A DNA stretch of 64,000 bases from Henriciella sp. GTDB lineage: Bacteria; Pseudomonadota; Alphaproteobacteria; Caulobacterales; Hyphomonadaceae. The position numbers were made by a program, and so were the translations under genes. The DNA lies in contig NZ_JAPYRE010000007.1 in NCBI RefSeq assembly GCF_029936995.1, positions 1 through 64,000 on the forward strand, written 5' to 3'. Below the pieces are notes generated by a model that saw nothing but the letters and a program-made list of their open reading frames with translations, was not told where the DNA came from and searched no databases. Positions 1-26,448 of this stretch are shown here, piece after piece; within the stretch, counting starts at the first letter, position 1; every line of letters starts with the position of its first letter.

Positions 1-248
1 CTCGGCGAAACCAGCCCGCTAAGGTGAGGAAGCGCCAAAAACTCCAGCCCCGAATAAGGGCAATTTTGGGAGCGGTTCAGAAAGGGCTAGACTCTCGAAA
101 TGAGTGAGGGACGCGTGGGGCTCAGGTCAGTCACGCAATCCGTGTCCGCTTCGTTCTGAGGTCGGGCCCGTTTCCTCACATCTCCAAGAGCTTGCTTTTC
201 GAGGTTTTGTTACTCACTTTCCTTGCCAGCTCTTCTAGCAATAATAGC
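1..248. other. left flank, no recognisable gene
   Basis: The stretch before the alkL stop codon holds only short open frames on both strands, none with a convincing ribosome-binding site or family motif. I also see no clear terminator hairpin with a T-run for the leftward alk operon. It may be decayed mobile-element sequence, but I could not recognise it. Confidence 0.4.
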
Positions 249-935
249 TTAAAACCGGTAGGCAATACCGATGTTGAGAATTGTTGGGTCCACCGAAATC
301 TTGCCTCTGACCGGCGCCCCGCCGAGTGTCCCAGAGATATCTGTTTCGAATGGCGTGTAACGTATATCGGCATTAGCAAACCAATTATCGCTCATTTGAT
401 AGCGCATTCCAACTTGGACAGCGGGCGCCCAGGCGTCTTTCAAGTCGAAGTCCGCGAGTGCATCCCCTTGTTCTTCCAGAAACAAGATTCGAGCGATACC
501 GGCACCAACATAAGGGCTAACGGATGAATTAGTCGAAAAGTGATATTGAAGCGACAAAACAGCAGGGCCATATTCCGTCTCTCCAACAGGCAGTCCTGCC
601 AAACTGCCGCTCCCTGCAAGATTAGCGCTGGCAGGCAAACCACCAAAGAAGTTCAACGCTACAGATGAATTCAAAAAATAGGAAACGTCGAAACTCAGCG
701 TGGTGTCATCGGTGATATTGACACCAGCCCCGGGTATTGGCGCACCGCCCGCGCTGATTGAATCCAACGTTTCGTTCGTGAATACTTTCGCCGCATTCAG
801 GCCAAAAAGCCAGTCGCCCTTGGAGTAAAGCGGTTCCGCATTTGCGACGCTGAACGACGAAAAGCCACCGATCATCGTGATTAACACAAACTTCGAGGCA
901 AAAGGCCCCTTGGATTTTACATTAGATTGTTTCAT
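249..935 (-). CDS. alkL: AlkL, OmpW-family outer membrane protein
   Basis: A 228-residue OmpW-family beta-barrel. The N-terminal signal peptide ends near the SVANAEP segment, and the protein ends in aromatic IAYRF as expected for an outer-membrane barrel. In the GPo1-type alkane system the OmpW homologue AlkL imports alkanes and related hydrophobic substrates across the outer membrane. The gene is the last of the leftward alk operon, 93 bases after alkK, with a strong AGGGAGGA ribosome site before ATG 935. The position at the operon end is the same as alkL in P. putida. The family call is firm; the alkane-import role is inferred from context, since OmpW proteins also occur outside alk operons. 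Confidence 0.85.
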   Translation of the reverse strand: MKQSNVKSKGPFASKFVLITMIGGFSSFSVANAEPLYSKGDWLFGLNAAKVFTNETLDSISAGGAPIPGAGVNITDDTTLSFDVSYFLNSSVALNFFGGLPASANLAGSGSLAGLPVGETEYGPAVLSLQYHFSTNSSVSPYVGAGIARILFLEEQGDALADFDLKDAWAPAVQVGMRYQMSDNWFANADIRYTPFETDISGTLGGAPVRGKISVDPTILNIGIAYRF

Positions 936-1028
936 TTATTCCTCCCTTTTGGTCGTTTTTTCGCGCCCTATGCGCGGTCGCAAACAGGCGGAACATGCGA
1001 TCCGCAAACCCGCTTGCCTGATTTCAGG

Positions 1029-2651
1029 CTACGCCAGAAGCACGTCCCCATAGGCTTCCCGCAGCTTGTTCTTCAGCACCTTACCGGTTGCGTTTCGTGG
1101 AAGCTCATCCACAAAAACGACCGTATCCGGGATCTGCCATTTGGCGACTTTGTCAGAAAAGAAGGCAATCAAATCCTTCTCTGACACTTTTGCTCCTGGT
1201 GCCTTGACCGCGACAAGGACCGGCCGTTCGTCCCATTTTTCATGTTTTGCCGCGATTGCGGCGGCATCCACGATACCGGGATGACCGACCGCGATGCCCT
1301 CAAGTTCGACGGTGGAAATCCATTCGCCGCCAGATTTTATGATGTCCTTGGAGCGATCCCGGATCGTCATGAACCCATCGGCATCAATCGAGGCCACATC
1401 GCCGGTTTCAAACCATCCATCGGATGCCAAAGTCGTGCCCGGCTCCGCACAAAAGTAGCTGTCTACGACCCAATGGCCGCGAATGCGAAGATTGCCTTGC
1501 GCCGCCCCATCCTCGGGAAGTGTGCTGCCTTCATCGTCAACGATCTTGAGTTCCACGCCATAGGGCGGGCGGCCCTGGCTTTCTCGCACTTTCGCCTGCT
1601 CTTCCTCGGTCATGCCTGCATGGCGTTCCAGCAAGGCATTCGCGGTCCCGAGAGGCGAGGTTTCGGTCATGCCCCAGGCGTGCACGACTTCGGTGCCATA
1701 TTTGTCGCGGAATTCGGCGATCATCGACGGGGGACAAGCCGACCCACCGACCACTGTCCGTGTGAGGGTTTCGGCTTTGGAGCCGAGTTTGTCGAGCGAT
1801 GCGAGAAGCCCCTGCCAGATTGTAGGAACACCAAGCGCGACCGTCACGCCTTCGTCGTCGATGAGCCGTGTAAGGCTGTCACCATCAAGTCCCGGACCAG
1901 GCAGGACCAGCTTTGCGCCGACCATCGCAGCAGCATATGGGATGCCCCAGGCATTGACGTGGAACATCGGAACCACGGGCATCATCACTTCGCGTGCTGA
2001 AATGTTCAGCGTATCGGGAAGGGCCGCGCCCAACGAATGTAACACCGTAGAGCGGTGCGAATACAGAACGCCCTTGGGGTTTCCTGTAGTCCCGGAAGTA
2101 TAGCAAAGGCTGGATGCATCATTCTCATCGACATCCACCCAATCGGCGTTTTCGTCGCCCGAGGCCAGGAAGTCCTCGTAGAACACAAGTCCGGGGATTT
2201 TTCTTGCTGCTTTTTCATCACGCACGGACATAAGAACGAAGGTATCGACAGTCGTCAGCTTCTCCTTGATCCCCTCAATGATCGGCAGGAACGTCTTGTC
2301 AAAAAAGATGACCCGATCTTTCGCGTGGTTGATGATATAGACAAGCTGTTCCGGGAAAAGGCGCGGATTGATCGTGTGACATACCATTCCACAGCAGGAA
2401 ATGCCAAAGTAGCATTCTAGATGCCGCGCATTGTTCCACGCGATCGTCGCCACGCGATCCCCTTTGAAGAGCCCCATCTTTGTCAGCGCCGAGCCGAGCT
2501 GCCGGGATCTGTCAGAAATACCTTTCCAGTTCGTCTTAGTCTTTGTGCCATCTGTTTCCACCGACACAATCTCGGTGTCGCCGTGGTAGCGAGCTCCGTG
2601 GTCGATCAGTGAATGAATGGTCAGTGGCATAGCCATCATCTGTCCGCGCAT
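1029..2651 (-). CDS. alkK: AlkK, medium-chain acyl-CoA synthetase
   Basis: A 540-residue AMP-forming acyl-CoA ligase. The P-loop-like AMP-binding motif [11 protein letters not shown] is near residue 190, the adenylation-core aspartate lies in GWFETGDVA, and the C-terminal lysine motif is in [11 protein letters not shown]. It activates the fatty acid made by AlkH to acyl-CoA for beta-oxidation. The chosen start (MRGQMM) resembles the GPo1 AlkK start as I remember it, and GAGGAAG lies five bases upstream. The gene follows alkJ in the order alkB-G-H-J-K-L. Length is normal and I see no damage. Confidence 0.9.
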
Positions 2652-2777
2652 TTGGCTTCCTCTTCAGAACTTGAATTTTGGGTTGGAATCGTGCCGTTCT
2701 GAAACTGCTCGAAGCTTCTTACAATAAACCCCATCGCCCCCTGACACCGGACTGTTTTTCGCTTTTCATCATAAAGT

Positions 2778-4406
2778 TCAGGCAACTGAACGACTCCTGT
2801 CAAAAATACGCACCTGCCCCAGAATGATCTCGGCCGCATTCTCAGCGATGACCATGGTCGGGGCGTTGGTGTTTCCAGCGACAAGGCTTGGCATGATGGA
2901 TGCGTCCACCACTCGCAGCCCAGATACACCGCGAACCTTAAGCTCGGGGTCGACCACAGAATCCTTGTCCGCACCCATTCGGCATGTACCAACCGGATGA
3001 TAGATTGTTTCTGCGCTTTCCCGAATGAATGCCGCGATCTCATCGTCGGTCTGTACGGATTTACCGGGGTGCACTTCGTATTTGCTGTGCGCAGACATTG
3101 CCGGCGCTTCGAGTATCCTGCGCCCAGCTTTGAAGGCTGCAATCATCGTTCCCATATCTTCCGGATCGCCAAGATAATTCGGCTGAATCAGAGGATCGTC
3201 CATAGGATCCGGGCTTTTGAGGCCAATATAGCCGCGGCTCTTGGGCAAAAGATCGCAGATGTGAAGCGTATAGCCATAACCAAAAGCGATCTTGCGGCCA
3301 TGATCTTTCAGATATGTGGGCAGGAAGTGAAACTGAACATTCGGCCTATCGCGGTCAGGGGACGACTTAATGAACCCACCGCTTTCCGCAACATTTGACG
3401 TGAGAAACCCTTTACGTCTGAAGATGTAGGAAAGCAAACCACCAATGCCACGCGGCAGAAAGCTGGGCGCGACACCGATCGGGCGCCGTGAGCTAGCAGC
3501 ATGCATAATCGTTACATCGAGGTGGTCGGCCATGTTCTTGCCAACCTCGGGAAGGTCGTGAACGACGGCTAGACCATGCCGTTTAATTTCTTGGGCATCC
3601 CCGATACCGGACAGAAGGAGAAGTTGAGGCGAATTCACGGCCCCGCCAGACAGGATCACCTCGCCGCCGGCATTGAGACGCAGTTGGCGATATTCGCCGC
3701 CCTGCCGCAAGGTGACACCCGTTGCGGACTTTTCTTCCATGACGACGCGGGTCACCCGGGCTTCGGTGATGACTTCAAGATTGGAACGGGACTCAGCCCC
3801 ACGGAGAAAGGCTTGCGCCGAACTCCAGCGCCGTCCGTCCTTTTGCGTGACCTGATACATGCCCAGGCCCTCTTGTTCGGCGCTGTTGAAATCGCCGTTG
3901 TGGGGGATCTGCAGTTCGCGCCCAGCCTGTACGAAATCGCGGCTCAAAGGGTTCACGGTTTTCAGCTCGCTCACGGAAAGCTCGCCGCCCTTACCATGAC
4001 TATCGGTTGCTCCGAACCGATGGTTGTCTTCGATCCGCTTGAACAGGTCTGTCATGCGGTCCCAGCCCCAGACATCCGTGCCTGCCTCGGACGCCCAGTA
4101 GTCGTAATCGGCCTTGTGCCCGCGGATATAGACCATGGCGTTGATGGACGACGACCCGCCCAGTGTTTTGCCACGAGGCCAGAACAGTCTACGGCCATTC
4201 AAATGTTCTTGTGGTTCGGTATCGAATGCCCAGTTCAGCTTTTTGCTATTGGCCAACAATGCGATCCCCACTGGCATGTGAATCAGGGGGTTCTTATCCT
4301 TTGGGCCCGCTTCGATAAGCGCGACGCGTTTTGCCGGGTTTGCAGACAACCGGTTGGCCAGAACGCAACCGGCGGATCCGGCGCCGACGATGATATAGTC
4401 GTACAT
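2778..4406 (-). CDS. alkJ: AlkJ, membrane-associated GMC alcohol dehydrogenase
   Basis: An FAD-dependent GMC-family oxidoreductase of 542 residues. The N-terminal dinucleotide-binding motif is [16 protein letters not shown], the GMC signature lies around GGSSSINAM, and the C-terminal catalytic histidine is in [10 protein letters not shown]. AlkJ oxidises primary medium-chain alcohols to aldehydes and passes electrons to the respiratory chain. The frame is open further upstream, but ATG 4406 is chosen because AGGGAGAG sits just before it and the FAD motif then starts at residue 4. It lies between alkH and alkK in the alk operon. Confidence 0.9.
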
Positions 4407-4437
4407 TTCTTCTCTCCCTATTGGTTCCGGGCGGCTG

Positions 4438-5883
4438 TTATCCAAGCACCCGGACCACGATGTTTATGAGGCGGCGTACAAAGCCCGTGTAAGGCGGGAA
4501 AAGCATGTGAGTGATGGAGTGATTTTCCTCCAGAACGGCTTTTTCATGCGAAAAGGCCTTGAAGCCGTATTCGCCATGGGCCGCCCCGATGCCGGAGTTG
4601 TTGACGCCGCCGAATGGCAGGTTCGGGTGCAGGAAATGCACCACTGTAAGGTTTACGCCCACGGCGCCCGAAGAGGTGCGCGTGATAATCTGGTCAGCGA
4701 AGTCCTTGCTTTTGTCGAAGATATAAAGAGCAAGGGGCTTGGGGTTTGCGTTGATCTTGTCGATAACTTTGTCCAGATCAACATATTCGATGATCGGCAA
4801 AATTGGCCCGAACAGCTCTTCCTGAGTGATTTCCATATCATCCGAAACCTCGGAAATCAGCGTCGGGGCAACGAAGTTCTGGCCCGCATCGGTCTGACCG
4901 CCCTGAAGGATACTTGCGCCTTTGGCACGGGCATCCTCGATCAGGTTGCGCAGCCGGTCAAAATGCCTATCGTTCACGATCCGGCAATAGTCGGGCGTTG
5001 CTTTTTGTGCCTCGGGCGTTTTCCCATAGACCCGACCGATCTCGGCCTGAAGCGCGGTCTTGAACGCGGCCGATACATCGCGGTGCACATACACATGATC
5101 GGGGGCGATACAGGTCTGACCGTTGTTTGAGAACTTGCCCCAGACGATGTTTCGCGCGGCCTTTTTGATATTGGCGTTGGGCCCGACGATAGTGGGCGAC
5201 TTGCCACCAAGTTCCAGAGTGACCGATGTCAGGCTTTTTGCCGCCGCCTCCATCACGACCTTGCCGATCGCCGGGCTGCCCGTGAAGAATATGTGGTCGA
5301 AGGGCAGTGACAGAAGCTCCTGGGAAACCAAGGCATCGCCTTCGATGACCTTGACCAGATCCGGTGTGAACGCCTCTTCCACGATGTCGGTGATGACCTG
5401 GGCCGCATTCGGTGTCATTTCGGACGGCTTGATAATGGCGCTGTTGCCGGCCGCGATTGCCGAAACCAGCGGCCCGAGCGAAAGATTCACCGGATAATTC
5501 CAGGGCGCGATGATCAGGCATACACCCTTGGCCTCGGGGCGAACCCGTGCCTTGGTGCCAAACACCCCCAAAGTGGCGCGCGCCCGTTTGGGGCGCATCC
5601 ACGACTTCAGATGGTGTTTGGTGTGCCGGATTTCCTGAAGCACAGGAAAGATCTCGGTCAGTTTCACTTCTTCGGCGGGTTTGCGAAAATCAGCCGCGCA
5701 AGCCGCGATGATTTTGTCCTCGTTCCGTTTGACGGCCTCTGCCAGGCGGTCCAGCTGTGCGATACGTGCCTTGCGGTCAAAGACCGCCCGCCGGGCAAGT
5801 TGTGCTCGAATCTGGGTGTCAAACGCCGCTCGGATGTCATCGGCACCGGCTGTTTTGGCGGGAAATGAGGCAACCTGATTCAT
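4438..5883 (-). CDS. alkH: AlkH, aldehyde dehydrogenase
   Basis: An NAD(P)-dependent aldehyde dehydrogenase of 481 residues, close to the usual length for AlkH. Visible motifs are the Rossmann-entry APWNYP, the catalytic glutamate in LELGGKSP and the catalytic cysteine in [10 protein letters not shown]. It oxidises medium-chain aldehydes to fatty acids. The hydrophobic C-terminus may associate with the membrane. The frame is open well upstream into alkG, but ATG 5883, ten bases after the alkG stop, fits the operon and the family N-terminus. It sits between alkG and alkJ. Confidence 0.9.
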
Positions 5884-5893
5884 GTTCACGCTC

Positions 5894-6367
5894 TTATTTT
5901 TCTTCGTAGAGGACATAGTCCTCTTTCGTGGCACCACAGTCCGGGCAGCACCAATCATCGGGGATCTGGCTGAACAAAGTTCCCGGCGGAAAACCTTCGT
6001 GTTCGTCGCCAAGGGCTTCGTCGTAGATATGACCGCATGTGATGCAAAGCCATTTCCGGTAGGCGGTTCCGGCGGCGGGGGCCGCCTGTGCCACCGGAGC
6101 AGGCGGCGGTGCGGCGGCAGGAGCGGCAACCGCCACGGGTGCGGGTGCCGGGGCCGGAGCGGATGTCGGTGCCGGTGCCGGGGTTGGTGTAGGCGCTGCG
6201 GCTTCTCCGATCAGCAAAAAGTCCTCTTTGTCGCGGACCGCGCAATCGGGGCACGCAAAGTCTTCGGGCACTTGCGACCACGGCGTTCCCGGCGGGAAAC
6301 CTTCATGCGGGTGGCCCTGGATTTCATCGTAGGTGTATCCGCAATCCGGGCATTGATATTTGGCCAT
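5894..6367 (-). CDS. alkG: AlkG, two-domain rubredoxin
   Basis: A 157-residue protein with two rubredoxin domains, roughly residues 1-52 and 104-157. Each has both iron-binding cysteine pairs: CPDCG with CPDC in the first, CITCG with CPDCG in the second. A long proline/alanine linker joins them. AlkG carries electrons from the reductase AlkT to the hydroxylase AlkB. The two-domain architecture is that of GPo1 AlkG; most rubredoxins have a single domain. Nothing is missing from either metal site. A good ribosome site (GGGAGGAA) precedes ATG 6367. Confidence 0.93.
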
Positions 6368-6490
6368 TGTTCATTCCTCCCTTACACACATGAGTTGACA
6401 GGCAAGCACATGCGTCGTCCCAGATTTTCTGTCGGTTGTGTCTGCGGCCCCGTCTTCGAGTGCGAGCAAGGGGCTGTTTGTCAGGTCAGG

Positions 6491-6511
6491 GTTGGCCCCA
6501 TCGGGGCCAAC
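6491..6511 (-). other. strong hairpin in the alkB-alkG intergenic gap
   Basis: A perfect 9-bp inverted repeat (GTTGGCCCC / GGGGCCAAC) with a 3-base loop lies in the 174-base gap between alkB and alkG. No T-run follows it on the minus strand, so it is not a classical terminator. It could stabilise or process the operon mRNA and set the alkB to alkG ratio; that role is inference. Confidence 0.5.
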
Positions 6512-6541
6512 GCCTTTGTCTGAGATGCCAAGCCTTGGGTT

Positions 6542-7772
6542 TTATTCGGCGGGCATTGCGGCAGGCTGCGCAGGTGCGACCGACCCGAATTTGCGGTCAT
6601 AGTAGTCGCGCATACCGGGTTCGATCTGGATCTTGTTCAGATCGCCTTTGGCCCAGTCCAGGACACGATGATCCATGATCGACCGGAACCAGGAGGGGAT
6701 CAGCGCGGCAAAGAACATCCCGGGATAGCCCGAAGGAAGCGCAGGCAGATCCTTGAAGTCCCGCAGGGATTGATAGGACCGCGTCGGGTGCGCGTGGTGG
6801 TCCGAGTGCCGCTGCAGGTGGAACAGGATCAGGTTGGACATGATATGGTTCGAGTTCCACGAATGGTGCGGCTTCTGATGCTCATACTTGCCGTTGGGCA
6901 GTTTTTCGCGCAGCAAGCCATAATGCTCGATATAGTTGGCCGAAGTCAGCTGCCACCATCCGTACGCCATCTGAATGGGCAGGAACACAAGCATGATGGG
7001 CCCGAAGAATGCCAGCAGCCCGGCGTAAAGAACGACGGTAATGATCAGCGGCTGAAGAATTTCGTTATCCAGGCTCCAGACGCTCTTACCACTCCGCTCA
7101 AGGCGCACCTCTTCTAGCTCCCAAGCGCGTTTGAAAGCCCCGGGGATTTCGCGGGTTGCGAAAGAATAGATGTTTTCGCCCATACGCGAGGTTGCCGGGT
7201 CTTTCGGGGTGGCCACGTCACGGTGGTGCCCTTTGTTATGTTCGATGAAGAAGTGGCCATAGCCCACCACTGCCAGCACCAGTTTTGCCATCCAGCGATC
7301 AAAAGCTTCCTTCTTGTGACCGAGTTCATGGCCGGTGTTCAGCGCCAAACCGTTGACGACCCCCAGCGACAGTGCCAGCGCGACGAATTCGAGCGCATTC
7401 AGAGAATGGGTTGCGACCCACCAGCAAGACCCGATCAAAGCCGCATAATGCATGGGCACCGTCAGATAAGTAAGCACGCGATAATATCGGTCTCTTTCAA
7501 GATCAGGTACGGCCGATTCGGGGGGATTGGAAAAATCCTCGCCAAACATAGCGTCCAGCATCGGAACCGCCAGATACCATAAAATCAGCACAGTCCCGTA
7601 CCAGATGCTCCAGCCGGTTACCGAGACCAGAGCCGGTTACCGAGACCAGATACAGTCCGATTAGCGGCGTTGCCGGCCAGAATACGGACAAAATCCAAAA
7701 ATACCGTTTCTTATCAACGTATACTTCATCGGCGCCAGCTTGCGCCGTGGACGCTTGGCTTAGATCGCTCAT
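6542..7772 (-). pseudogene. alkB: alkB alkane 1-monooxygenase, frameshifted by 19-bp duplication
   Basis: Integral-membrane di-iron alkane hydroxylase, split over two frames. Translation from ATG 7772 (ribosome site GGGAGGAG) gives the expected start through GLYLVSVTG, then leaves the family sequence at a perfect 19-bp tandem duplication (7612-7649) and stops after 89 residues. The second frame carries the rest: the histidine boxes HELGH, HNKGHH and HLQRHSDHH. Deleting one repeat copy gives a 403-residue protein reading smoothly through VTGWSIWYGTVLILWY, including the tryptophan matching W55 of GPo1 AlkB. Restart at an internal GTG (7591) would lack the N-terminal membrane segment. The gene is otherwise undamaged, so the lesion is recent, phase-variable or an assembly error. 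Confidence 0.92.
7612..7649. repeat. perfect 19-bp tandem duplication inside alkB
   Basis: The 19-base unit agccggttaccgagaccag occurs twice with no gap, at 7612-7630 and 7631-7649. Because 19 is not a multiple of three, it shifts the alkB frame. No other sequence in the gene is disturbed. Short perfect tandem repeats can contract by replication slippage, so the change could be reversible. Confidence 0.97.
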
Positions 7773-7896
7773 AGTCTACTCCTCCCAAGGAAAAGGCTGT
7801 TGTAAGTTTCTGTATTGGCCAGAAGAGCATCTCCTTTTCGTACTTGCTGCTTCTTGCCGCTTGGAATTAAGCTGCCTCTCAATCAGGTCACCCCAC

Positions 7897-7916
7897 AACT
7901 ACACGTTCGTGTAGTT
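7897..7916. promoter_or_regulatory. 20-bp palindrome, candidate AlkS operator
   Basis: The sequence AACTACACGTTCGTGTAGTT is an inverted repeat with perfect 9-base arms and a 2-base centre. It lies in the divergent region between alkB (start 7772) and alkS (start 7983). AlkS is a LuxR/MalT-type activator that controls both the alkB operon and itself in the GPo1 system, so this is the obvious candidate binding site. Binding is inferred, not shown. Confidence 0.6.
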
Positions 7917-7982
7917 TAGAGTTTTTGTGCGCTAGGTAAGATGTCGGCACGCCTACGATACATCACTTTCAGGGAGGGAGGG

Positions 7983-10598
7983 ATGATTAAGACCTCCAGC
8001 GCAATCCCGAACGACATCTACGATTTTCTGGAACGCATGAATGTCCGTCAAAAGAAATTGACTCAGGGCTGCCTGAGACGTGACAGACTGGATATTGCGG
8101 GACACCCCGGCGCGAAATGCCTCCTTTATCAGGCACCTCGCGGCTTCGGCAAATCAGTGCAGATCGCCTTGTGCGCCCAATCGGCTGCCGACCGAGGAGA
8201 CGATTGTATCTATCTGGACCTGTCGTCGTTCTGGCCAGAGAGCGTCTCTGAAGCGGACCTTATTGCAACCGCGATTGTCGCAATGCTTTCGCCACCGGAC
8301 CTTCCCGTCACGTCCGGTGATCGCGGCCCAGAGATCATCGCACTGCGCCTTCTTTTCGATTGGAAAAGACCCGTCATGATTTGCTTGGACGGCGTTTCTG
8401 ACTCTGCCGCCACACAGAGATTTCTGAAAACGATCACCCTGGAAACGCCAGAAGCCGTTCGACTGGTAGTAAGCGGGCACCAACCGGGCACGTTGGTCAC
8501 CCTGTCGGTAGTTTCGCATGTGGTTACGATCGGTCCAAGAGAGTTAAGCTTCACTCTTGACGAGACATGTTCAATTCTACCGTTGGAAGCCGACCGGGCG
8601 ACGAAGATATACAACAAGACGGCTGGTTGGCCGCTTCTATGCGCACTGGCTGGCAAATCGAAAGCATCAGGCGACGCGATCGCTGACCTTTCAGAGGTTC
8701 AGGCATACTTCGAAACCGACGTACTGGCACAGATTACGCGGCCGCTCCTCGATCACCTGATTAACGCCAGTTGGCTGGAGGAAATCACGGCAGACTGCAG
8801 CGATTATGTGTTCAAGATTAACGATTCCAGTTGCAAATTGGCAGAACTAGCATCGCGCCACGGGCTTTTGATATCCAGCGTTGAAAAACCAAAATGCTAT
8901 GAAATGAACCGGGCCCTGAAAGAGTACCTGCGCAATCGTTTCATCGAAGCAAATGGATCGCGTCGGTCGTATTTCCTAAAACGTATCGCATTCTGGCATT
9001 GGCGAAAAAAAGAGTACCGTTTGGTCGTGGATGTTGCTCTTCGCGCACACGATCACAACTGGGCCAAACGGCTAACTGATCAAGCTCTGTTCGATCTAGC
9101 CCTGAGACAAGGAGAGATTGAGGCCTTGACGATCTGGTTCACGGGCATTCCCAGAGCCAAACTGCTTCAGATGCCATCCTTGGCTATCGGATATGCTTGG
9201 GTGCTGTACTTCAGTCAACGCGCACAGGAAGCACAGGATGTGCTTTCCAGGCTGAACGACCAGAGGGTTTCCGCACCTTCGGAGGAGGAAGATTCGAATG
9301 GCTGGGGGAAACTGGTGCATGCCATCGGTCTTGCCACCCACGATGAATTGAAAGAAAGCGATGAAAGATGCGCGGCCTGGGTTGATACCTATGGGTCGGC
9401 CAATCCTGTCGGCCATGCCGCGGCACAGACGTGCAGAGCATTCATCGCCGCTTCCGGCAGGCAGTTTGCTGCCCTTTCAGATCAAATAGCCTCCGCCACG
9501 GTCGTGAGCGGCGCGGTCCGTCACCGTTATGCGTTTGGCTGGCTTGCTGCTGCTGGGATTCTGGCTAAGCTGCTCAATGGCGACATCTATGGCGCGCGCA
9601 GCGAGATTCGTCGCGCACAGAAAAACGAAAACGTCGCCCATGAGCGCACACCCTTTATCAAAGGAATGCTCGCGGCCTTCGAGCTTCAGGTCCAAACAGA
9701 AGAAGAGTCGATCACACCCGATGAGCGTCTTGTGCAAGAGGCTCTGGATTTTGCGCTGGAATTCGGGGTGACGGATGTGGTGTGGAACACCGTCCGAAGC
9801 GCGGCCGAGATCTATATTCGCCAGGGTGACACATTGCAGGCGTTCTTGTTGCTTGAACGTTGCCGCCTGATGGCAAAGGATCGCGGTCTGAAGCGGCTGG
9901 GCATTCTGGTGCGATTGGGCTCCGAAGTCTTTGCTATGGGAACCCGAACCAGCACTCCGCTCTCGACCGAGCCGCTTCCGTCCGACGAAGACCTGCTGTT
10001 TCTGCCAAACCAGAATCGCGCCATCCAGGCGGAAATCGCCTTGCTAGAAGCCTCAAGATTTCTGCGAGACGGCAAACTGGGCCTGGCCGAGATGCACGCT
10101 CGAAAAGCCCTTTCCAACTTTTCCGCCGTCCGAGACCAACGCGGAGAAATCAGGGCGCAATATACGCTTGCGACTGCAATTTATCTGATGGGCGAAAAAA
10201 AGCAGGCGCTGAAAAGAATCGCCGATGCCGATCTGAAGGCACAACAACTGGGCGCTTTCAGGTCCTTGATAAACAGGCGGCATTTTCTGCGTGTCATCAG
10301 TCCAGCGGCGAAAGCGTTCTTGGATCAACGGACAACTCAGGTCGCCAGGACCAAAGTACCTGCGCATGATGTGCAGATTACTGAACGCCCCTTTGCATAT
10401 AGATCGGCCCCCATAAGTCAGAAGCAGGTAATCGTCCTGCAACATGCCGCACTTGGGCTGAGCAACAAGGAAATTGCAGTGCGCATGCATGTCACGGAAG
10501 ACACCGTGAAGTGGCATTTCAGAAAAATTTTGCGTGGTCTAAACGTCGCCAATCGCACCGAGGCAGTAATGGCTGCGCGCTCGCTTAGCCTCATCTAA
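7983..10598 (+). CDS. alkS: AlkS, MalT/LuxR-type alkane-responsive regulator
   Basis: An 871-residue ATP-dependent regulator. A Walker A motif (APRGFGKS) is near residue 45, a long helical sensor/repeat region fills the middle, and a LuxR helix-turn-helix (LSNKEIAVRMHVTEDTVKWH) is at the C-terminus. Size and architecture match GPo1 AlkS, which activates the alk operon in response to alkanes. The start at 7983 is preferred over an in-frame ATG at 7941 because a purine-rich GGGAGGGAGGG stretch precedes it, although the spacing is tight. It is divergent from alkB and followed 30 bases later by alkT, as in the alkST pair. Confidence 0.88.
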   Translation: MIKTSSAIPNDIYDFLERMNVRQKKLTQGCLRRDRLDIAGHPGAKCLLYQAPRGFGKSVQIALCAQSAADRGDDCIYLDLSSFWPESVSEADLIATAIVAMLSPPDLPVTSGDRGPEIIALRLLFDWKRPVMICLDGVSDSAATQRFLKTITLETPEAVRLVVSGHQPGTLVTLSVVSHVVTIGPRELSFTLDETCSILPLEADRATKIYNKTAGWPLLCALAGKSKASGDAIADLSEVQAYFETDVLAQITRPLLDHLINASWLEEITADCSDYVFKINDSSCKLAELASRHGLLISSVEKPKCYEMNRALKEYLRNRFIEANGSRRSYFLKRIAFWHWRKKEYRLVVDVALRAHDHNWAKRLTDQALFDLALRQGEIEALTIWFTGIPRAKLLQMPSLAIGYAWVLYFSQRAQEAQDVLSRLNDQRVSAPSEEEDSNGWGKLVHAIGLATHDELKESDERCAAWVDTYGSANPVGHAAAQTCRAFIAASGRQFAALSDQIASATVVSGAVRHRYAFGWLAAAGILAKLLNGDIYGARSEIRRAQKNENVAHERTPFIKGMLAAFELQVQTEEESITPDERLVQEALDFALEFGVTDVVWNTVRSAAEIYIRQGDTLQAFLLLERCRLMAKDRGLKRLGILVRLGSEVFAMGTRTSTPLSTEPLPSDEDLLFLPNQNRAIQAEIALLEASRFLRDGKLGLAEMHARKALSNFSAVRDQRGEIRAQYTLATAIYLMGEKKQALKRIADADLKAQQLGAFRSLINRRHFLRVISPAAKAFLDQRTTQVARTKVPAHDVQITERPFAYRSAPISQKQVIVLQHAALGLSNKEIAVRMHVTEDTVKWHFRKILRGLNVANRTEAVMAARSLSLI

Positions 10599-10628
10599 AC
10601 AATCGGTAAACCCGGGGAGGAAAGAAAC

Positions 10629-11810
10629 ATGAACACAACTGTGATTATCGGCAATGGAGCGGCCGGAACAAATGCTGCCGCAACCTTGCGCATGAATGGC
10701 TACGAAGGTGCGATAAAACTTATTGGCGATGAGGTGTCGCTGCCTTATCAGCGCCCGCCTCTGTCCAAGGCGTGGCTGCAGGGACCGGATAGACCGCAGC
10801 CAACTCTGATACGTCCTCTTTCATTCTACGAAGACAATCGCATCGACCTGATGCGGGCGCGCAAGGTCGTCAAGATTGATAGGAATAAGCGTAGAATCCA
10901 CTTTGCGGACGGGAAGACGATGAAATTCAATACCTTGATCCTTGCCACAGGGGCATCGCCGCGTCGTCTTAATGCGAAGGGCGCGAACCTGAAAGGGATC
11001 CACTATCTGAGAGACCTGGGCGATTCGGCAAGGCTTCGCCAAGCCTTGAGCGATCCTGGCTGTCGCGACGTTGCAATCATTGGCGCCGGTGTTATCGGGC
11101 TCGAAGTGGCCTCTGCCGCGGTCAATCTTGGGAGAACCGTCACTGTTGTCGAGGCCGCCGCTCGCGCCATGGCCCGCGTTGCCTCACCCGCAACAACCAA
11201 TTTCGTTACTCAGAAGCTGAAAGATGCCGGTGTTCAGTTTCTCTTCAATCAGAAGATTGAGAGGTTCGGCGCCGCTGATCGCCGCGTTTCCTCGATCCAT
11301 CTTGGCGATGGATCCCAAATAAAGACCGATCTCGTGTTGGCGGGGATTGGTGCAACACCCAATATTGCGCTTGCCGAAGCCGCGGGCCTGGAATGTGACA
11401 ATGGTATCTGCGTCGATCAGGACATGCGGACATCTGACTCCGAAATATTTGCAATCGGAGATTGTGCCCGCGGTGAAAACGAATTCGCATCCGGAAAACT
11501 GCGTATCGAAACCATTCACAATGCAACCACGCAGGCCCAGATTGCGGCAGCGGCCATTTGCAACAAAGAACGTCCTACCCCAGTTCCCCCACGGTTCTGG
11601 TCCGATCTCAAAGACATGAAGGTTCAGGCGGTCGGAATATCGTCCGGTTACGATCTGGTTCGCAGCGATGCTTCTCAGCATCCACCAACTTTGGAAACGC
11701 ATCTGAAATGCGGCGAACGTCTTATCGCAGCCGAGATCGTAAACCTTCCCAATCGTCAGAGCGCCCTTGCGAGAGCGATTTCTCCGCGCATTCCAGTTGA
11801 CACTCAATAA
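10629..11810 (+). CDS. alkT: AlkT, rubredoxin-NAD(+) reductase
   Basis: A 393-residue FAD- and NADH-binding reductase of the pyridine nucleotide-disulfide type. The FAD motif IIGNGAAGTNAA is at the N-terminus, the NADH motif IIGAGVIGLEVA is near residue 155, and the second FAD motif IFAIGDCA is near residue 280. It passes electrons from NADH to rubredoxin AlkG. PYQRPPLSKA and TPPRFWSDLK are shared with GPo1 AlkT as I recall it. The start has a strong GGGGAGGA site. It forms an operon with alkS and looks intact. Confidence 0.92.
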   Translation: MNTTVIIGNGAAGTNAAATLRMNGYEGAIKLIGDEVSLPYQRPPLSKAWLQGPDRPQPTLIRPLSFYEDNRIDLMRARKVVKIDRNKRRIHFADGKTMKFNTLILATGASPRRLNAKGANLKGIHYLRDLGDSARLRQALSDPGCRDVAIIGAGVIGLEVASAAVNLGRTVTVVEAAARAMARVASPATTNFVTQKLKDAGVQFLFNQKIERFGAADRRVSSIHLGDGSQIKTDLVLAGIGATPNIALAEAAGLECDNGICVDQDMRTSDSEIFAIGDCARGENEFASGKLRIETIHNATTQAQIAAAAICNKERPTPVPPRFWSDLKDMKVQAVGISSGYDLVRSDASQHPPTLETHLKCGERLIAAEIVNLPNRQSALARAISPRIPVDTQ

Positions 11811-11998
11811 TCCACAATCAGGTCTGATTTTGGGGCGAGTTCGGCCACTTTTTCTGCTTCGAAGCCGCATCCAGAGTATTGGACAGATTCCACACCTCGT
11901 TCTTTGCGCCTGGATTTGAATTTTCAATAGGTTGTCCATTGGGCGATGCCGAAGGAGACTGATGTTCCGACACGTCAACTTCGCCGGAGGAACACCAC

Positions 11999-12031
11999 AT
12001 GGACATGCATCAGAATGCGCGCACTGACCCG
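11999..12031 (+). pseudogene. IS481-like transposase N-terminal fragment
   Basis: After a very good ribosome site (GGAGG) the frame reads MDMHQNARTDP and then loses similarity. IS481-family transposases commonly begin with a short H-x-N-A-R-x-T/x-P segment, so this looks like the first codons of such a gene with the rest removed. The fragment is very short, so the family assignment is tentative. Confidence 0.4.
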
Positions 12032-12077
12032 ATCCTTTTGGACGCGGCCACGAACAAAGAATCACCTGGCTGCATTC

Positions 12078-12140
12078 ATGGAGGTAAAGCGATTTCGGCC
12101 TGAAGAAATCATATCGAAATTGCGCAAGGCGGAGGCAACT
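12078..12140 (+). pseudogene. IS3-family OrfA N-terminal fragment
   Basis: The frame from ATG 12078 reads MEVKRFRPEEIISKLRKAEA, the typical first helix of an IS3-family OrfA helix-turn-helix protein, then diverges into non-homologous sequence. Only about 21 codons remain, with no OrfB nearby. It is a truncated insertion-sequence remnant, 46 bases after the IS481-like fragment. Confidence 0.6.
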
Positions 12141-12327
12141 GTGCGCATCGCGACGACTGCCACCCTGCTTTCTTCCCACAAAGACAGCTATACTCAACAG
12201 GACATTGACAGCTGGCGATCCAGCCCTCCCGCCAGGTTCCTCACAGGCGGTAGCCACCGGAAGGCGAAGCTTTTTTGGTGATTGAACGCTCGATGCCTGG
12301 ATGGCCGTGATGATGAAGCTTCGGACA

Positions 12328-12588
12328 TCAGGTGATTTGTGGTTCCGACGTTGACCGGGGGGAGTAAGGCGACCGGCCACTTTTTCGAGATTTCGAGAAA
12401 CCACGATCTGTCGCCATGAACCGCGCCAACATAGGTGCGATAAGCTTTGCGGCTTCGTTCTTCTGTCCGGTCTCACGGGCCAGCACGTCAGCATAGGCAA
12501 CAAGATCGCGATGCACATCGGCGGGAAGTTCAATACTCAATTTGACAGGTTTATCGTCTGGGATGGCGCCGAGTTTCAATTTGGTCAT
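12328..12588 (-). CDS. DUF2274 family protein downstream of trbI
   Basis: An 86-residue protein of the DUF2274 family, a small protein regularly encoded after trbI in alphaproteobacterial conjugative elements. The core (KLSIELPADVHRDLVAYADVL and KLIAPMLARFMATDR) looks like a ribbon-helix-helix-type fold. It starts 3 bases after the trbI stop, so it is probably translationally coupled. The last 15-20 residues (after SRKSG) do not look like the family, and the frame may be running into the rearranged junction downstream. Function unknown. Confidence 0.75.
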   Translation of the reverse strand: MTKLKLGAIPDDKPVKLSIELPADVHRDLVAYADVLARETGQKNEAAKLIAPMLARFMATDRGFSKSRKSGRSPYSPRSTSEPQIT

Positions 12589-12591
12589 GGG

Positions 12592-13770
12592 TCAATTCCG
12601 ATAGGGTTCGAGGATGAGGTCGCGCGTGACCATCACGCGCACTGGGAATCCGGGGCGAATGGTCAAGGTCGGCGGGATGGAAAGCTGACGACGAACAACC
12701 TCCTCACCGGCGCGGCCGATCGTGTCCTGCGTTCCTTCGCGAATGGCGCGGGCGATGTCGTCGTCATCATCGGCGCCAAGCTCCACACCGATATTCAGGA
12801 CAGTGGCGAGCCCGGCCGCCATGAACAGCCGTCCCCAGTGGTTGTTGACGCCGTCTTCGAGGCCGGCATAGCCGGCCTCGTCGGCGCCGGGCTGGCGTTC
12901 GAGAACGATAGAGCGCCCATTGGGCAGAATCAGCCGTGTCCAGGCCAGCAGCACGCGGCTTTGGCCGAAAGCGACGCGGCTATCGTATTCACCGATGAGG
13001 CGCGCGCCTTGCGGGATCAGCAGGAAGCGACCGGTCGGGCTGTCATAGACATTGGATGTCACCTGCGCGGTGATCTGACCGGGAAGGTCCGAGCGCAGAC
13101 CCGTGACCAGCGCCGCCGGAATGACCGCACCGGCCTGGACCACATAGGGGCTTGGCGGATCGGTGAGCCGGTCGTTGCTTGTCGTGCGTCGATCAATGGG
13201 TTCGTCAAGGAAGGCTTCCCGTCTGTCCGTGGCATCTGGTGCTGCGCTTGTTACGCTCGCGGGAAAGAAGGATCCGGCGCCGGATTGTAAAGGACCGACC
13301 GCCGACGAAGTTTGAGGCTGGTCATCGATGGTGGTCGTGGCTTCAGCGAAAAGTCGGCTGAGCCGGGCTGCCTCCAACTCCTGCGACCGGCGCTGTTCGT
13401 CAGGATCGACGGCAGGCGCAGCGACGACCGCCGGCACGGGCTGACCGCGTTGTTGAGCTGACAGGATCGGCCGCCCGAGCTCCCCGGGCAGTGGCGGCCC
13501 AAGTTGGGGTATGTTTGTGTAGTCGGTCGGAAGGCGCGACAGACCTTCGGCTGCCTGGATTCGCTCGGTCGAATAGAGTTCCGGCGGTCCATCGGCCGGT
13601 TTGCGATCTTGCAGAGCCACAATCAGGATGGCACCGAGACCGAGGCCTCCGACCGCGCCAAGCACCGTCAGCGTGCGGCGCGAGAGACGCATGACCGTTG
13701 GCGGATCGGCGCGCAGCCGCAAAGAGGCGGCAATCTCTTTGTCCTCACGGGATTCTCTATCGTCGCTCAT
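12592..13770 (-). CDS. trbI: TrbI, VirB10-like T4SS core protein
   Basis: A 392-residue VirB10/TrbI protein. A cytoplasmic N-terminus is followed by one membrane helix near residues 30-50 (TVLGAVGGLGLGAILIVAL), a proline-rich periplasmic region and a C-terminal beta domain with LIPQGARLIGEYDSRV and GLEDGVNNHWG. It spans from inner to outer membrane in the mating-pore core complex with TrbG and TrbF. The start overlaps the trbG stop by 4 bases. Confidence 0.93.
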   Translation of the reverse strand: MSDDRESREDKEIAASLRLRADPPTVMRLSRRTLTVLGAVGGLGLGAILIVALQDRKPADGPPELYSTERIQAAEGLSRLPTDYTNIPQLGPPLPGELGRPILSAQQRGQPVPAVVAAPAVDPDEQRRSQELEAARLSRLFAEATTTIDDQPQTSSAVGPLQSGAGSFFPASVTSAAPDATDRREAFLDEPIDRRTTSNDRLTDPPSPYVVQAGAVIPAALVTGLRSDLPGQITAQVTSNVYDSPTGRFLLIPQGARLIGEYDSRVAFGQSRVLLAWTRLILPNGRSIVLERQPGADEAGYAGLEDGVNNHWGRLFMAAGLATVLNIGVELGADDDDDIARAIREGTQDTIGRAGEEVVRRQLSIPPTLTIRPGFPVRVMVTRDLILEPYRN

Positions 13771-14804
13771 TTGCGTGGCCCCACGGCGCCGGGGCGTGAC
13801 GCGGTAGGGGCGTTGCGGCTCACCCCGTCGGTGCGGACGATCCGCACGCGTTTCTGCCTGTCGCCGAGACGCAGTTCGGCGGCGGCGAAGAGCCGATCGA
13901 CGATCATGTAGTTGCGGGCGATGCGATAGTTGACGAGCTGGCCTTCGCCTTCCGGACCGATAACGAAGAGCGGCGGCATTTCCCCCTGTCCGATCCCGCG
14001 CGGGAACTCGATGAAGACCTGCCGCCCATCATCGAAAGCGCGAAGCGGCCGCCAGGGCGCGCGGTCGCCCTCGATCCGATAGCGGAAGCGCAAGGAGTCG
14101 AGGACCACGTCACGTCCGATCGGCAAGGCTGCTTCCGCCTCGGCGTTGCGCCGCCTGAGCGCGATCAAGGCATCCTCGGCATAGGTCCACGAGACGGACG
14201 CCATGTAGGCGGACGGGTTCGCTCTCAGTTCGAGATGATAAGTCCGCCGATCCGTATTGATGACGAGGTTGGTCTGAAGATCAGGCCGCGTCGGTTTGAC
14301 CAGAATATGGATGCGCTGATCATCCCCTGAACCGCTCTGGGTGTTGCCGATGATCCAGCGCGCCGTGTCGCCGGCCGCGATCGGTCCGGAGCCAACAAGG
14401 CTCTCTCCGGGCTGCAGGGCGATATCGGTGATCTGCCCCGGCGATGCGTAGACCTGATAGAGCGCGCCCTCGGTGTAGGGATAGAGTTGTACGGCGTTGA
14501 TGAAGCCGTCTCGTACCGGCTCCATCCGGGCGGCGGCGTTCGCCTCGTTCACCCGCTCAGCGGGACCGGCAGATTCCGGCGCTCGGTCTCCCCCATTGAT
14601 CGGCTTGAGTTGACCAGGCAGCGGCAGTGGGCTGGTGCGCTCGACGATCCGCACCGGACTCTCCGGTTCCGGAAGAAGCTTCGCTTCGATCGGAGGGGTG
14701 TCGTAAGCGATCTCCGGCGGTTTGAAGGTCGCGCATCCCGAGAGAGTGGTCGCGGCGAGGAGGACCGTCATGGAGGCTTTGTTCAGGCGAAGTGTCTTTA
14801 TCAT
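13767..14804 (-). CDS. trbG: TrbG, VirB9-like T4SS protein
   Basis: A 345-residue VirB9/TrbG family protein of the outer-membrane core complex. ATG 14804 overlaps the trbF stop as ATGA and gives a lipoprotein-type signal peptide with the lipobox LSGC near residue 22. The C-terminal VirB9 domain includes TWTYAEDAL and FIEFPRGI. The frame is open several hundred bases further upstream through trbF, but that part is antisense-like shadow sequence and is not included. Confidence 0.9.
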   Translation of the reverse strand: MIKTLRLNKASMTVLLAATTLSGCATFKPPEIAYDTPPIEAKLLPEPESPVRIVERTSPLPLPGQLKPINGGDRAPESAGPAERVNEANAAARMEPVRDGFINAVQLYPYTEGALYQVYASPGQITDIALQPGESLVGSGPIAAGDTARWIIGNTQSGSGDDQRIHILVKPTRPDLQTNLVINTDRRTYHLELRANPSAYMASVSWTYAEDALIALRRRNAEAEAALPIGRDVVLDSLRFRYRIEGDRAPWRPLRAFDDGRQVFIEFPRGIGQGEMPPLFVIGPEGEGQLVNYRIARNYMIVDRLFAAAELRLGDRQKRVRIVRTDGVSRNAPTASRPGAVGPRK

Positions 14805-15487
14805 TGGGCGGACTCCCGGGACCAGTTGATGGCGTTGACAAAGATGCCGAGCGGGTTTTTGCGCAGGCGCTCGGCATCGCGCGGCTGTTGCAGAACGATG
14901 GTGAGAATGGCGGTCCAACGTTCCGTTGCGGCGAGTTGTCCGTTGGCGTAGCGGCGCTCGATCCAGGCGATGCGGAAGCTGCTCTCGGAGGCGCGGATAA
15001 CGCTGGAGACTTCGACCGAGATCTGCGTGTCGCCGACCTTGGCGAAGGGATCGTTCACCCGGGCGTAGTCGTTGAGCGCCAGCGCGCCCTTGTCGGTCGT
15101 GAAGTCGTAAGCGTGCAGCCAGTTCTGGCGCAGCACGATCGGATCGGCCGGGATTTGGCGCACATTCTCGATGAAGCGCGAGAGGTGGTAAGCGATCTGC
15201 GGATCGGTCGGTCGGAAGTCGGCGGTGGCAGGCGTCACGGCTTGCGCCGCGCCAAGCCTGTCCACCTCGACAACATAGGGCGTGATCGTCCCTTGTGTGG
15301 ACTGCCAGACAAGCGCGGCGCTGAGCCCGCCTGAGAGCAGCAAAGAGCCGAACGCCATCAGTCGCCAGTTCCTGGCTTGCACGCGGGCGGACCCGATGCG
15401 TTCGTCCCAGACCTGTGCGGCTTTCTGATAGGGCGTGACGGGCTCTGGGGTCTTGGAATAGCGAACGCTTGGACGACGGAACATCAT
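14801..15487 (-). CDS. trbF: TrbF, VirB8-like T4SS protein
   Basis: A 228-residue VirB8-type inner-membrane protein. One membrane helix lies near residues 43-62 (LMAFGSLLLSGGLSAALVW), followed by the periplasmic VirB8 fold with PYVVEVDRLG and ERWTAILTIVLQ. It is a scaffold in mating-pore assembly. It overlaps trbL by 4 bases upstream and trbG by 4 bases downstream, so it is part of a tightly coupled operon. Confidence 0.93.
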   Translation of the reverse strand: MMFRRPSVRYSKTPEPVTPYQKAAQVWDERIGSARVQARNWRLMAFGSLLLSGGLSAALVWQSTQGTITPYVVEVDRLGAAQAVTPATADFRPTDPQIAYHLSRFIENVRQIPADPIVLRQNWLHAYDFTTDKGALALNDYARVNDPFAKVGDTQISVEVSSVIRASESSFRIAWIERRYANGQLAATERWTAILTIVLQQPRDAERLRKNPLGIFVNAINWSRESAQ

Positions 15488-16770
15488 GATTTCTCCGAAA
15501 GGCTGACGGCGGTCCCGCCGCCACCATGGTCGCCAGAGCGAACGGCATGAGCTGCGACGGCGGCGCCGTGGTGAAGGGTTTGCTGTTGTTTCATGCGCCG
15601 CGCCCAGGCTGGCGGTACGCCACTGGCTGAGGGCGAGACGTCGGGGCTGTTACTGAACTTGCCGCCGGTCGCTTCGAAGGCTGCGCGCGAACCTGAGCGG
15701 TAGCTTTCGCTCATGGAACGGCGAAGCGGGTTCGTTGCGGCGCTGACGCCCGCTTTTCCAACGCTAGAGAGACCGGCGGCGACACCGGAGGCGCCGCCGC
15801 CAGCGGCAGCGTTTCCCATGCTGTAGGCGGTCGAGGCGCCACCGGCGACTGCCGCAGCGCCGCGCGCTCCGGCGCCGACTGTTCCGACGGCCATCCGGGC
15901 GCCAGCGACCCCGCCGACAGCAAGCCCGCCGGCGGCGAGACCTGCGCCAACCGCAGCGCCTGCGCCGAGTTGCGGGCCGCCCGAAACGATGCCGTTGGCG
16001 ATGCCCGGACCGAAGATGCCGAGCGCGAGCATGGAAAGCGCGGCGAGAACGATTGCCATGGCGTCTTCAATGGTCGGCTCACCCGTGAACCCCGCGGTGA
16101 ACTCGCCAAAGATGGTCGAGCCGATGCCGACGATCACGGCGAGCACCAGGACCTTGACCCCGGACGAGATCACCAGCCCCAACACGCGTTCAGCCATGAA
16201 GGCGGTTTTGTTGAACAGGCCGAAGGGTACGAGGATGAAGCCGGCCAGCGTGGCGAGCTTGAACTCGATCAGCGTGACGAAGAGCTGGATCGCCAGAATG
16301 AAGAAGGACAGGAGAACGACCAGCCAGGCGAAAAGCAGGATGATGATCTGGAGGAAATTCTCGAAGAAGGAGACAAAGCCCATCAGATCGGAAATCGACG
16401 CGAGAATCGGACGGCCCGCATCAAGGCCGATCTCTGCGATGCGGCCGGGCTGAAGCAGCTCGCCGGGGCTAAGGCTGCCGCCCGAAGCGATGAGGCCAAG
16501 CCCGGCGAAGCTTTCGAAAACGATGCGGGCGAGCGCGTTCCAGTTGCCGATGATGTAGGCGAAGACGCCGACGAAGAGCGTTTTCTTGATGAGCCGGGCG
16601 AGGATGTCGTCGTCGGCGCCCCAGGCCCAGAAGAGCGCAGCGAGCGTCACGTCGATGACGATCAGGGTCGTTGCCAGGAAGGCGACGTCGCCGCCGAGCA
16701 GGCCGAAGCCGCTGTCGATGTAGGAGGTGAAGACCTGCAGGAACCGGTCAATGACGCCAACACCGCCCAT
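15484..16770 (-). CDS. trbL: TrbL, VirB6-like polytopic T4SS protein
   Basis: A 428-residue VirB6/TrbL protein with about six to seven hydrophobic segments in the first 290 residues, followed by a long glycine/alanine-rich, then serine-rich, hydrophilic C-terminus. TrbL forms part of the inner-membrane channel for DNA. It lies between the trbK-like gene and trbF. The length is normal for this element type. Confidence 0.9.
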   Translation of the reverse strand: MGGVGVIDRFLQVFTSYIDSGFGLLGGDVAFLATTLIVIDVTLAALFWAWGADDDILARLIKKTLFVGVFAYIIGNWNALARIVFESFAGLGLIASGGSLSPGELLQPGRIAEIGLDAGRPILASISDLMGFVSFFENFLQIIILLFAWLVVLLSFFILAIQLFVTLIEFKLATLAGFILVPFGLFNKTAFMAERVLGLVISSGVKVLVLAVIVGIGSTIFGEFTAGFTGEPTIEDAMAIVLAALSMLALGIFGPGIANGIVSGGPQLGAGAAVGAGLAAGGLAVGGVAGARMAVGTVGAGARGAAAVAGGASTAYSMGNAAAGGGASGVAAGLSSVGKAGVSAATNPLRRSMSESYRSGSRAAFEATGGKFSNSPDVSPSASGVPPAWARRMKQQQTLHHGAAVAAHAVRSGDHGGGGTAVSLSEKS

Positions 16771-16773
16771 ATC

Positions 16774-17046
16774 CTACTCCTTCTCGGGATCGTCGCCGGG
16801 AAGCCCGAGAAATCGGCGGCGTTGCTCTGCCCAGGCGGCGCGACACATCGTGTCGATTTCCAGCTCTTCCGGCGTCACCGTTCGGCAGCGAGAAAGTTCC
16901 GCCTGCAAAGGATTGTTGGTCACGGGAGGAACCGATGGCGTTTCCGGAGTGACCGTGTTCGCCAGCTCAACCGCGGCGAAGAGCGCAGCGAGCCCGCCCA
17001 AGGCGATGGCGACGGGCCTGATGATTTGGTCGGGAGAATTGCGCAC
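16774..17046 (-). CDS. TrbK-alt, putative entry-exclusion protein
   Basis: A 90-residue protein with one N-terminal membrane helix and a conserved C-terminal region (RCRTVTPEELEIDTMCRAAW) with two cysteines. This is the TrbK-alt family, found between trbJ and trbL and proposed to block entry of a second copy of the element. The role is by family and position only. It starts 5 bases after the trbJ stop and ends 3 bases before trbL. Confidence 0.75.
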   Translation of the reverse strand: MRNSPDQIIRPVAIALGGLAALFAAVELANTVTPETPSVPPVTNNPLQAELSRCRTVTPEELEIDTMCRAAWAEQRRRFLGLPGDDPEKE

Positions 17047-17051
17047 GGGTA

Positions 17052-17792
17052 TTACCGGAACATGCTGACGGCGGTTGGCGTGTAGCCGGTCCCGTAGTCG
17101 AGGAAGCGATTGAGGTTCTCGCGCCCCTGCGCTTTAGCGGACGCGCGCCGAGCCGCGTCCAGCGCGTCCGCGCGGTTCTGCGCGGTGATGGCGGCGGTTA
17201 GGTCCGTCATCTGCTGGCTTTGCAGGGCGAGAAGTTGATTGCCGGCCTGCGCCGCCTGCAAGGTGCCGACCGCACCCTGGCTTTGCGAGACGAGAGTGCT
17301 CAATTCCGTGCGCGTCGCTTCAATATTGCCGACGACGCCGGCCTGGACCTTCAACGCGTCTTCATAGCCTGCAACCGAGGTCCGCCAGCGCGCCTCGGCA
17401 TTGGCGTTCATGGCGGCGAAATCGCCGGTTGCTGCGGCGTCTCCATATTGTTCTGAGAAGACGCGTTCGATTTCGGAGACGACGTATCCAACGCGCTGCG
17501 CTTCGCCCAGCAGATCTTCCGTCTGCTGCATGATCGACCGCAGACGCGCCAGCGATGAGTGCGGCAGGTTTGCGAGGTTGCGTCCCTGGTTGATCAACAT
17601 CTGCGCCTCGTTCTGAAGCTGCGTGATCTGATTGTTGATCATTTCGAGGGTGCGTGCGGCGGTGAGAATATTTTGCGCGAGGTTGGTCGGATCGATGACG
17701 ACGTCGCCGACGCCGAATAGCGCATAGGCCGGTTGCATCGGCGCCAAAGCGATGGCTCCGGTCAGCATGAGGGCGGCGAGTTTCTTACGCAT
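17052..17792 (-). CDS. trbJ: TrbJ, VirB5-like pilus-associated protein
   Basis: A 246-residue TrbJ/VirB5 protein with a signal peptide ending near QPAYA, then a helical secreted domain (ARTLEMINNQITQLQNEAQ) and the late MTDLTAAITAQNRADAL segment. It is exported and is thought to act at the pilus tip or in pilus assembly. The open frame extends upstream into trbE, but ATG 17792 gives a proper signal peptide and overlaps the trbE stop by 8 bases. Confidence 0.9.
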   Translation of the reverse strand: MRKKLAALMLTGAIALAPMQPAYALFGVGDVVIDPTNLAQNILTAARTLEMINNQITQLQNEAQMLINQGRNLANLPHSSLARLRSIMQQTEDLLGEAQRVGYVVSEIERVFSEQYGDAAATGDFAAMNANAEARWRTSVAGYEDALKVQAGVVGNIEATRTELSTLVSQSQGAVGTLQAAQAGNQLLALQSQQMTDLTAAITAQNRADALDAARRASAKAQGRENLNRFLDYGTGYTPTAVSMFR

Positions 17793-24420: not shown

Positions 24421-24443
24421 GTCTTTTCCTTCCGGGGTGATGC

Positions 24444-26201: not shown

Positions 26202-26448
26202 GACAAAGCGCCCGCTTGAAAGCGCGCGGCACGGTGAAACCCGCATAAAAACAGTGGGTTGAGCCGTGGGGCGGCACTGTGCCCATGACCGCAGCGGGCG
26301 AAATACCCAACAACAACAACGACATAGCGCGTATCCGTGCCGCGCCTTTTATCTCGCCCTCCCGTTGTTGTTGCGCCTTCCGTCCCCGTCCTCCCTCCCG
26401 GAAACACGCCATCGCGCGACGGACCGCGCGAGAGTGCGATCAGCGGGA
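26202..26448. other. candidate oriT region with CAA-repeat inverted repeat
   Basis: A non-coding gap between the relaxase and lytic transglycosylase genes. It contains an 11-bp inverted repeat built of trinucleotide repeats: CAACAACAACG at 26311-26321 and CGTTGTTGTTG at 26363-26373. Between the arms is GTATCCGTGCCGC, loosely resembling IncP-type nic regions (TATCCTGC). Position next to the relaxase plus the repeat suggests oriT; this is unproven. Confidence 0.4.

Follow-up and report, generated by a model that had tools for sequence, protein, structure and literature searches.

An apparently fresh 19-base tandem duplication breaks the alkB reading frame of a putatively mobile alkane-degradation cluster in Henriciella sp.

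The alkB gene in the window, by which we mean the whole 64-kb stretch of Henriciella sp. DNA analysed here, harbors two identical 19-base units arranged head to tail (7612-7649), and identity at a period of 19 extends over a 39-base array. An earlier inspection of the letters alone, hereafter the sequence-only reading, had claimed two identical adjoining units within alkB, and this claim is confirmed to the base (Table 1). It is quite probable, in our judgment, that a single spontaneous and very recent tandem duplication created a young null allele, which low-rate slippage could revert. The phenomenon is an ordinary one, a fresh frameshift through a short tandem duplication, and most likely represents an ordinary mutation that could in principle reverse itself rather than an evolved switch.

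The array has the top score (78, with 49 for the next) among the 18 tandem-repeat rows of the window. Simulation of 100 stretches of 64 kb under a first-order Markov model gave seven perfect tandem duplications with periods of 10-60 in total. Because none of them had a period above 12, a chance origin of the 19-base pair in alkB is excluded. The single-copy site lacks repeats of 8 or more bases, and its folding is unremarkable (z -0.64); with neither feature seen, a hot spot acting through repeats or a hairpin was rejected. By eye, the ends of the unit have one base in common, which is weak support for an origin by slippage, and a pair of CCAG motifs at the same site is spaced by 17 bases, not 19. 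Slippage during replication or a comparable short copying error probably made the duplication and thereby shifted the frame.

Translation from the native alkB ATG, which has GGAGGAG upstream, yields 89 residues before TGA 7505-7503, and the first 47 of these are the same as in the relative L003. Beyond residue 47 the correct frame is lost, at a point that falls between hydrophobic peaks with centres at 34-37 and 49-62. As far as it refers to this broken frame, the proposal that alkB is switched off stands. It had also been proposed that one unit would restore a 403-residue AlkB with its histidine boxes, and the one-unit relative indeed encodes 403 residues with four such boxes, which by the known box motifs start at residues 142, 171, 273, and 313. 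None of the four is present in the 89-residue product, as they fall later in the protein. The AlkB of the intact relative has these boxes and matches solved alkane monooxygenases (8sbb, E 7.5e-168; 8f6t, E 3.3e-123), as expected for this type of membrane enzyme. The two-unit allele is presumably null: AlkB function would be lost, with a product ending after the first membrane segment. The remaining alk cluster is open. The cluster was likewise said to be intact in every other alk gene, and the seven other translated alk frames, named from domains and gene order, do each contain one stop and the expected Pfam domains. A search of the window's own genome (G000) for a second alkB gave one AlkB match; its other matches to the fatty-acid-desaturase family number four, one of them under the cut-off. 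Programmed frameshifting at the duplication was rejected by inference, since the relatives, with their open alkB frames, need none.

Table 1. Positions of the duplication, the alk genes, and the conjugation part of the carrying element in the window
Feature	Position	Strand	Remarks
19-base unit, copy 1	7612-7630	.	window orientation
19-base unit, copy 2	7631-7649	.	array continues to 7650
alkB (alkane 1-monooxygenase)	6542-7772	-	frame broken by duplication; ATG 7772, stop 6542
Premature TGA	7503-7505	-	after 89 codons
Open downstream frame	6542-7591	-	349 codons from internal GTG 7591
alkG	5894-6367	-	two rubredoxin stretches, open; Pfam domains
alkH, aldehyde dehydrogenase	4438-5883	-	open; start picked by reading, scans took 4438-5901
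alkJ, GMC oxidoreductase	2778-4406	-	open; ATG picked by reading, Pfam scan took 2778-4445
alkK, AMP-binding enzyme	1029-2651	-	open
OmpW protein in alkL position	249-935	-	open
alkS-like protein	7941-10598	+	LuxR-type DNA-binding domain, open
alkT-like pyridine-nucleotide reductase	10629-11810	+	open
Conjugation part of element	12592-40895	.	
TrbI	12592-13770		Pfam
TrbE/VirB4-type ATPase	17785-20244		Pfam
T4SS coupling protein	22411-24552		Pfam
DUF3363 protein	24444-26246		
Large serine recombinase	39141-40895		584 residues; Resolvase, Recombinase, and zinc ribbon domains
tRNA-Ser	40785-40875		overlapped by serine recombinase gene

The sequence-only reading had suggested a comparison with close relatives, and this comparison, which drew on genomes of the family and order, returned a single unit in the relatives examined. 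In the family survey, 11 of 105 genomes matched the alkB region: the window's own, eight with close full-length copies (G039, G121, G120, G035, G011, G132, G021, and G115, with G021 from the same genus), one with a distant copy (G137), and one with a short match (G025). Each of the eight close copies (L051-L058) contains one unit and aligns over the entire gene with just one gap, of 19 bases; across the 1212 bases, five are free of mismatches and the other three have 6, 28, and 43. A single unit and a mismatch-free alkB are likewise seen in Oceanicaulis sp. HTCC2633 (L064), and Henriciella pelagia LA220 carries the same locus. The alkB frame is open in G039, G035, G011, and G021 as well as in named records, several of which are the same genomes. 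The 38-base double unit was found in one of 398 genomes of the order, a sample from a larger group, and that one is the window's own. Among 66 alkB loci fetched from named genomes, a single open frame spans at least residues 18-379 in 61; the remaining five (L122-L126) are fragments, a split gene, or cut by a contig end. No frame-shifting insertion is present in any of the 65 that cover the site, where three distant loci (L114, L116, and L117) with balanced two-residue gaps nearby were counted as having no insertion. Separately, alkB of Sphingobium sp. Ant17 (L125, 8473-9700) is split over three open frames, and in Marinobacter salarius R9SW1 three incomplete alkB stretches (L122, L123, and L124) lie far apart on the chromosome.

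The block around alkB allows the event to be placed in time. Over window positions 5001-15000, in a comparison from which row L066 was left out, there are no mismatches in three copies that all come from outside the genus, Hyphomonadaceae bacterium TMED5 (L017) and two records titled Hyphomonas sp. (L065 and L087). The 19 bases are the sole gap in L017 and L087, and L065 has an additional 3-base gap. Since the relatives have one unit and no substitution is seen over 5001-15000, the duplication appears to be derived and very young, or else it is not real and reflects an assembly error. The lack of mismatches nearby and the continued identity of the two units would mean that no decay has followed the break. 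Judged from these alignments, the duplication would postdate the last shared ancestor of the 5001-15000 block, with nothing else changed there since. The allele therefore has the features of a recent loss of function, a derived lesion that breaks the frame next to intact sister copies and, beyond the 19 bases, no further change in alkB relative to at least six genomes.

The main rival to a fresh mutation is an assembly or sequencing error, in which case the second unit would be absent from the DNA and alkB would be intact; we regard this as unlikely. The identity of the relatives over about 10 kb is what would be expected had nothing happened, and the assembly is in 20 contigs. In addition, a scan of 610,406 of the 3,400,460 bases of the genome, made without N runs, found no second perfect tandem duplication with a period of 13-200, a solitary status that would suit an error. 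The part scanned, however, gave no sign that the assembly makes such duplications elsewhere; one of period 12 lies at C11 194831. Moreover, ordinary reads are much longer than the 39-base array, and neither the window nor the remainder of its contig contains an N or ambiguous base. The duplication is presumably present in the DNA. A general tendency of this genome to form such duplications was rejected on the same count of 610,406 bases.

Loss of AlkB need not mean loss of alkane growth. The genome (3.4 Mb) encodes five P450s, and a comparison with the PDB covered three of them. For the two on contigs C6 and C9, the best match is CYP153A7 (3rwl, deposited as an alkane hydroxylase; E 1.1e-188 and 4.5e-146, respectively), and the one on C17 best matches CYP125-type proteins. 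Because two CYP153-type P450s are present elsewhere in the genome, alkane growth may survive. Genome bins of Henriciella without AlkB, as well as CYP153 from Henriciella, are described in the available portion of one study (PMC10654063). The accessible parts of the literature on Henriciella and alkanes contained no record of growth of this strain on alkanes. The CYP153-type gene at C6:9600-12200 (L154), on a 22-kb contig, has a P450 bit score of 67.6, and a CYP153-type gene in G132 (C1), at a distance of about 18 kb from the alk cluster there, has the equal score of 67.6; given this equality, the L154 gene may be carried by the same element or by a related one.

Slippage between copies had also been proposed to act as an on/off switch for alkane growth. 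In such an evolved phase-variation system, the two-unit state would flip at useful rates and yield populations mixed in their alkane use, and we find this very improbable. The locus does contain a perfect, frame-changing tandem repeat inside a gene, as phase-variable loci do; perfect copies could slip, and the unit size of 19 is not a multiple of three. There is also a precedent among capsule genes, as the part of the report available describes capsule loss through a tandem duplication within wchA in serotype 8 pneumococci (PMC4022640). However, relatives did not show the repeat retained in differing copy numbers: the close family copies, the order-wide sample, and the 65 covering loci offer no second unit or frame-shifting insertion outside the window's own genome, and the switch is not borne out. 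The array comprises just two copies, the single-copy site showed no hot spot, the 610,406 bases scanned contain no further duplication of this kind (period 13-200), and the CYP153-type enzymes could act as a back-up. Further, the same capsule report, as far as it was available, expects reversion of at most about 1e-5, and does so for its own insertions of up to nine bases, not 19 (PMC4022640). We likewise give little credence to a scenario in which alkB, carried on a mobile element, toggles between one and two units such that part of a marine population keeps a costly membrane enzyme off with the rest of the pathway ready. In what was accessible of the literature on alkB phase variation, alkane hydroxylase frameshifts, tandem duplications, and Henriciella, nothing on alkB switching was seen; the sole mention of phase variation in the available text of one paper concerns siderophores (PMC12128166), and the frameshifts in that of another are in genes other than alkane hydroxylase (PMC11945736). 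The duplication would also not be a null allele if an internal start gave rise to a shortened, working AlkB, but this is highly unlikely, for although the 349-codon frame past the lesion remains open and holds all four histidine boxes, its product would be without the first hydrophobic segment and the beginning of the second, and neither GTG 7591 nor the ATGs at 7561 and 7549 have a GGAGGAG-like ribosome-binding site upstream (by eye, unscored).

The simplest reading is a fresh accident that is tolerated, or favoured, where alkanes are lacking; the allele would be neutral or favoured as long as they are absent, and slippage between the two copies could restore alkB at a low rate. Of the earlier suggestion that the event is recent or reversible, recency is supported by the sequence of the relatives, and reversibility is plausible by precedent. 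The 19-base pair might revert more often than insertions of up to nine bases. The published precedent is mixed on this point: according to the portion available, no revertants could be raised from a Staphylococcus aureus isolate with a duplication within agrA, and another isolate, with a duplication plus an inversion, did revert (PMC6686034).

The carrier of the allele would be a conjugative-type element spanning window positions 1-40895, with the alk cluster as its cargo, because conjugation genes and a recombinase adjoin the cluster and blocks of it are common to several genera. The region combines type IV secretion genes and a coupling protein with a recombinase located at a tRNA gene, all hallmarks of an integrative conjugative element. 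Blocks of about 12-17.6 kb occur at 95-99% identity in Hyphomonas, Oceanicaulis, Henriciella, and uncultured Hyphomonadaceae records; L017 is more than 99.9% identical to L065 and L087 across 17 kb. On plasmid CP104101 of Phaeobacter sp. G2, the alk genes follow the same order and again lie next to type IV secretion genes, with 81% identity in the 4.9 kb that were compared. Outside 5001-15000, L017, L065, and L087 all differ from the window, L017 by 33, 6, 15, 33, and 17 in the successive kilobases of positions 1-5000, and the element is thus a mosaic. Per-kilobase divergence between element copies is strongly uneven over window positions 1-18000, which points to recombination among them. The window's contig starts inside the shared block (contig C11). 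On another contig, a stretch of about 1.96 kb (C17:4344-6299, L156) is 99% identical to the part of L017 that leads into the window start, with a slight overlap.

An inventory based on gene presence would count this strain among the AlkB alkane degraders despite its broken alkB frame. The near-identical sister copies, in turn, form a clean natural pair, with one lesion in about 10 kb of otherwise unchanged DNA, for measuring reversion under alkane selection.

In the pneumococcal type 3 capsule locus, in cap8E, and in tts, tandem duplications reportedly control phase variation (Waite and others 2001, 2003). As in those capsule genes, alkB loses its open frame to a short tandem duplication within it; in contrast to them, alkB is catabolic and is represented by one sequence state in one assembly. 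By domains, the gene set here is comparable to the Pseudomonas putida GPo1 alk cluster (alkBFGHJKL), a system that also has alkST. However, the alkS- and alkT-like genes adjoin alkB here in divergent orientation, a single alkG contains two rubredoxin stretches with no separate alkF noticed, and the cluster resides on a conjugative-type element whose recombinase gene overlaps tRNA-Ser. Sphingobium sp. Ant17, finally, also has a broken alkB, but over three frames, whereas the alkB described here bears a single lesion and no further change.
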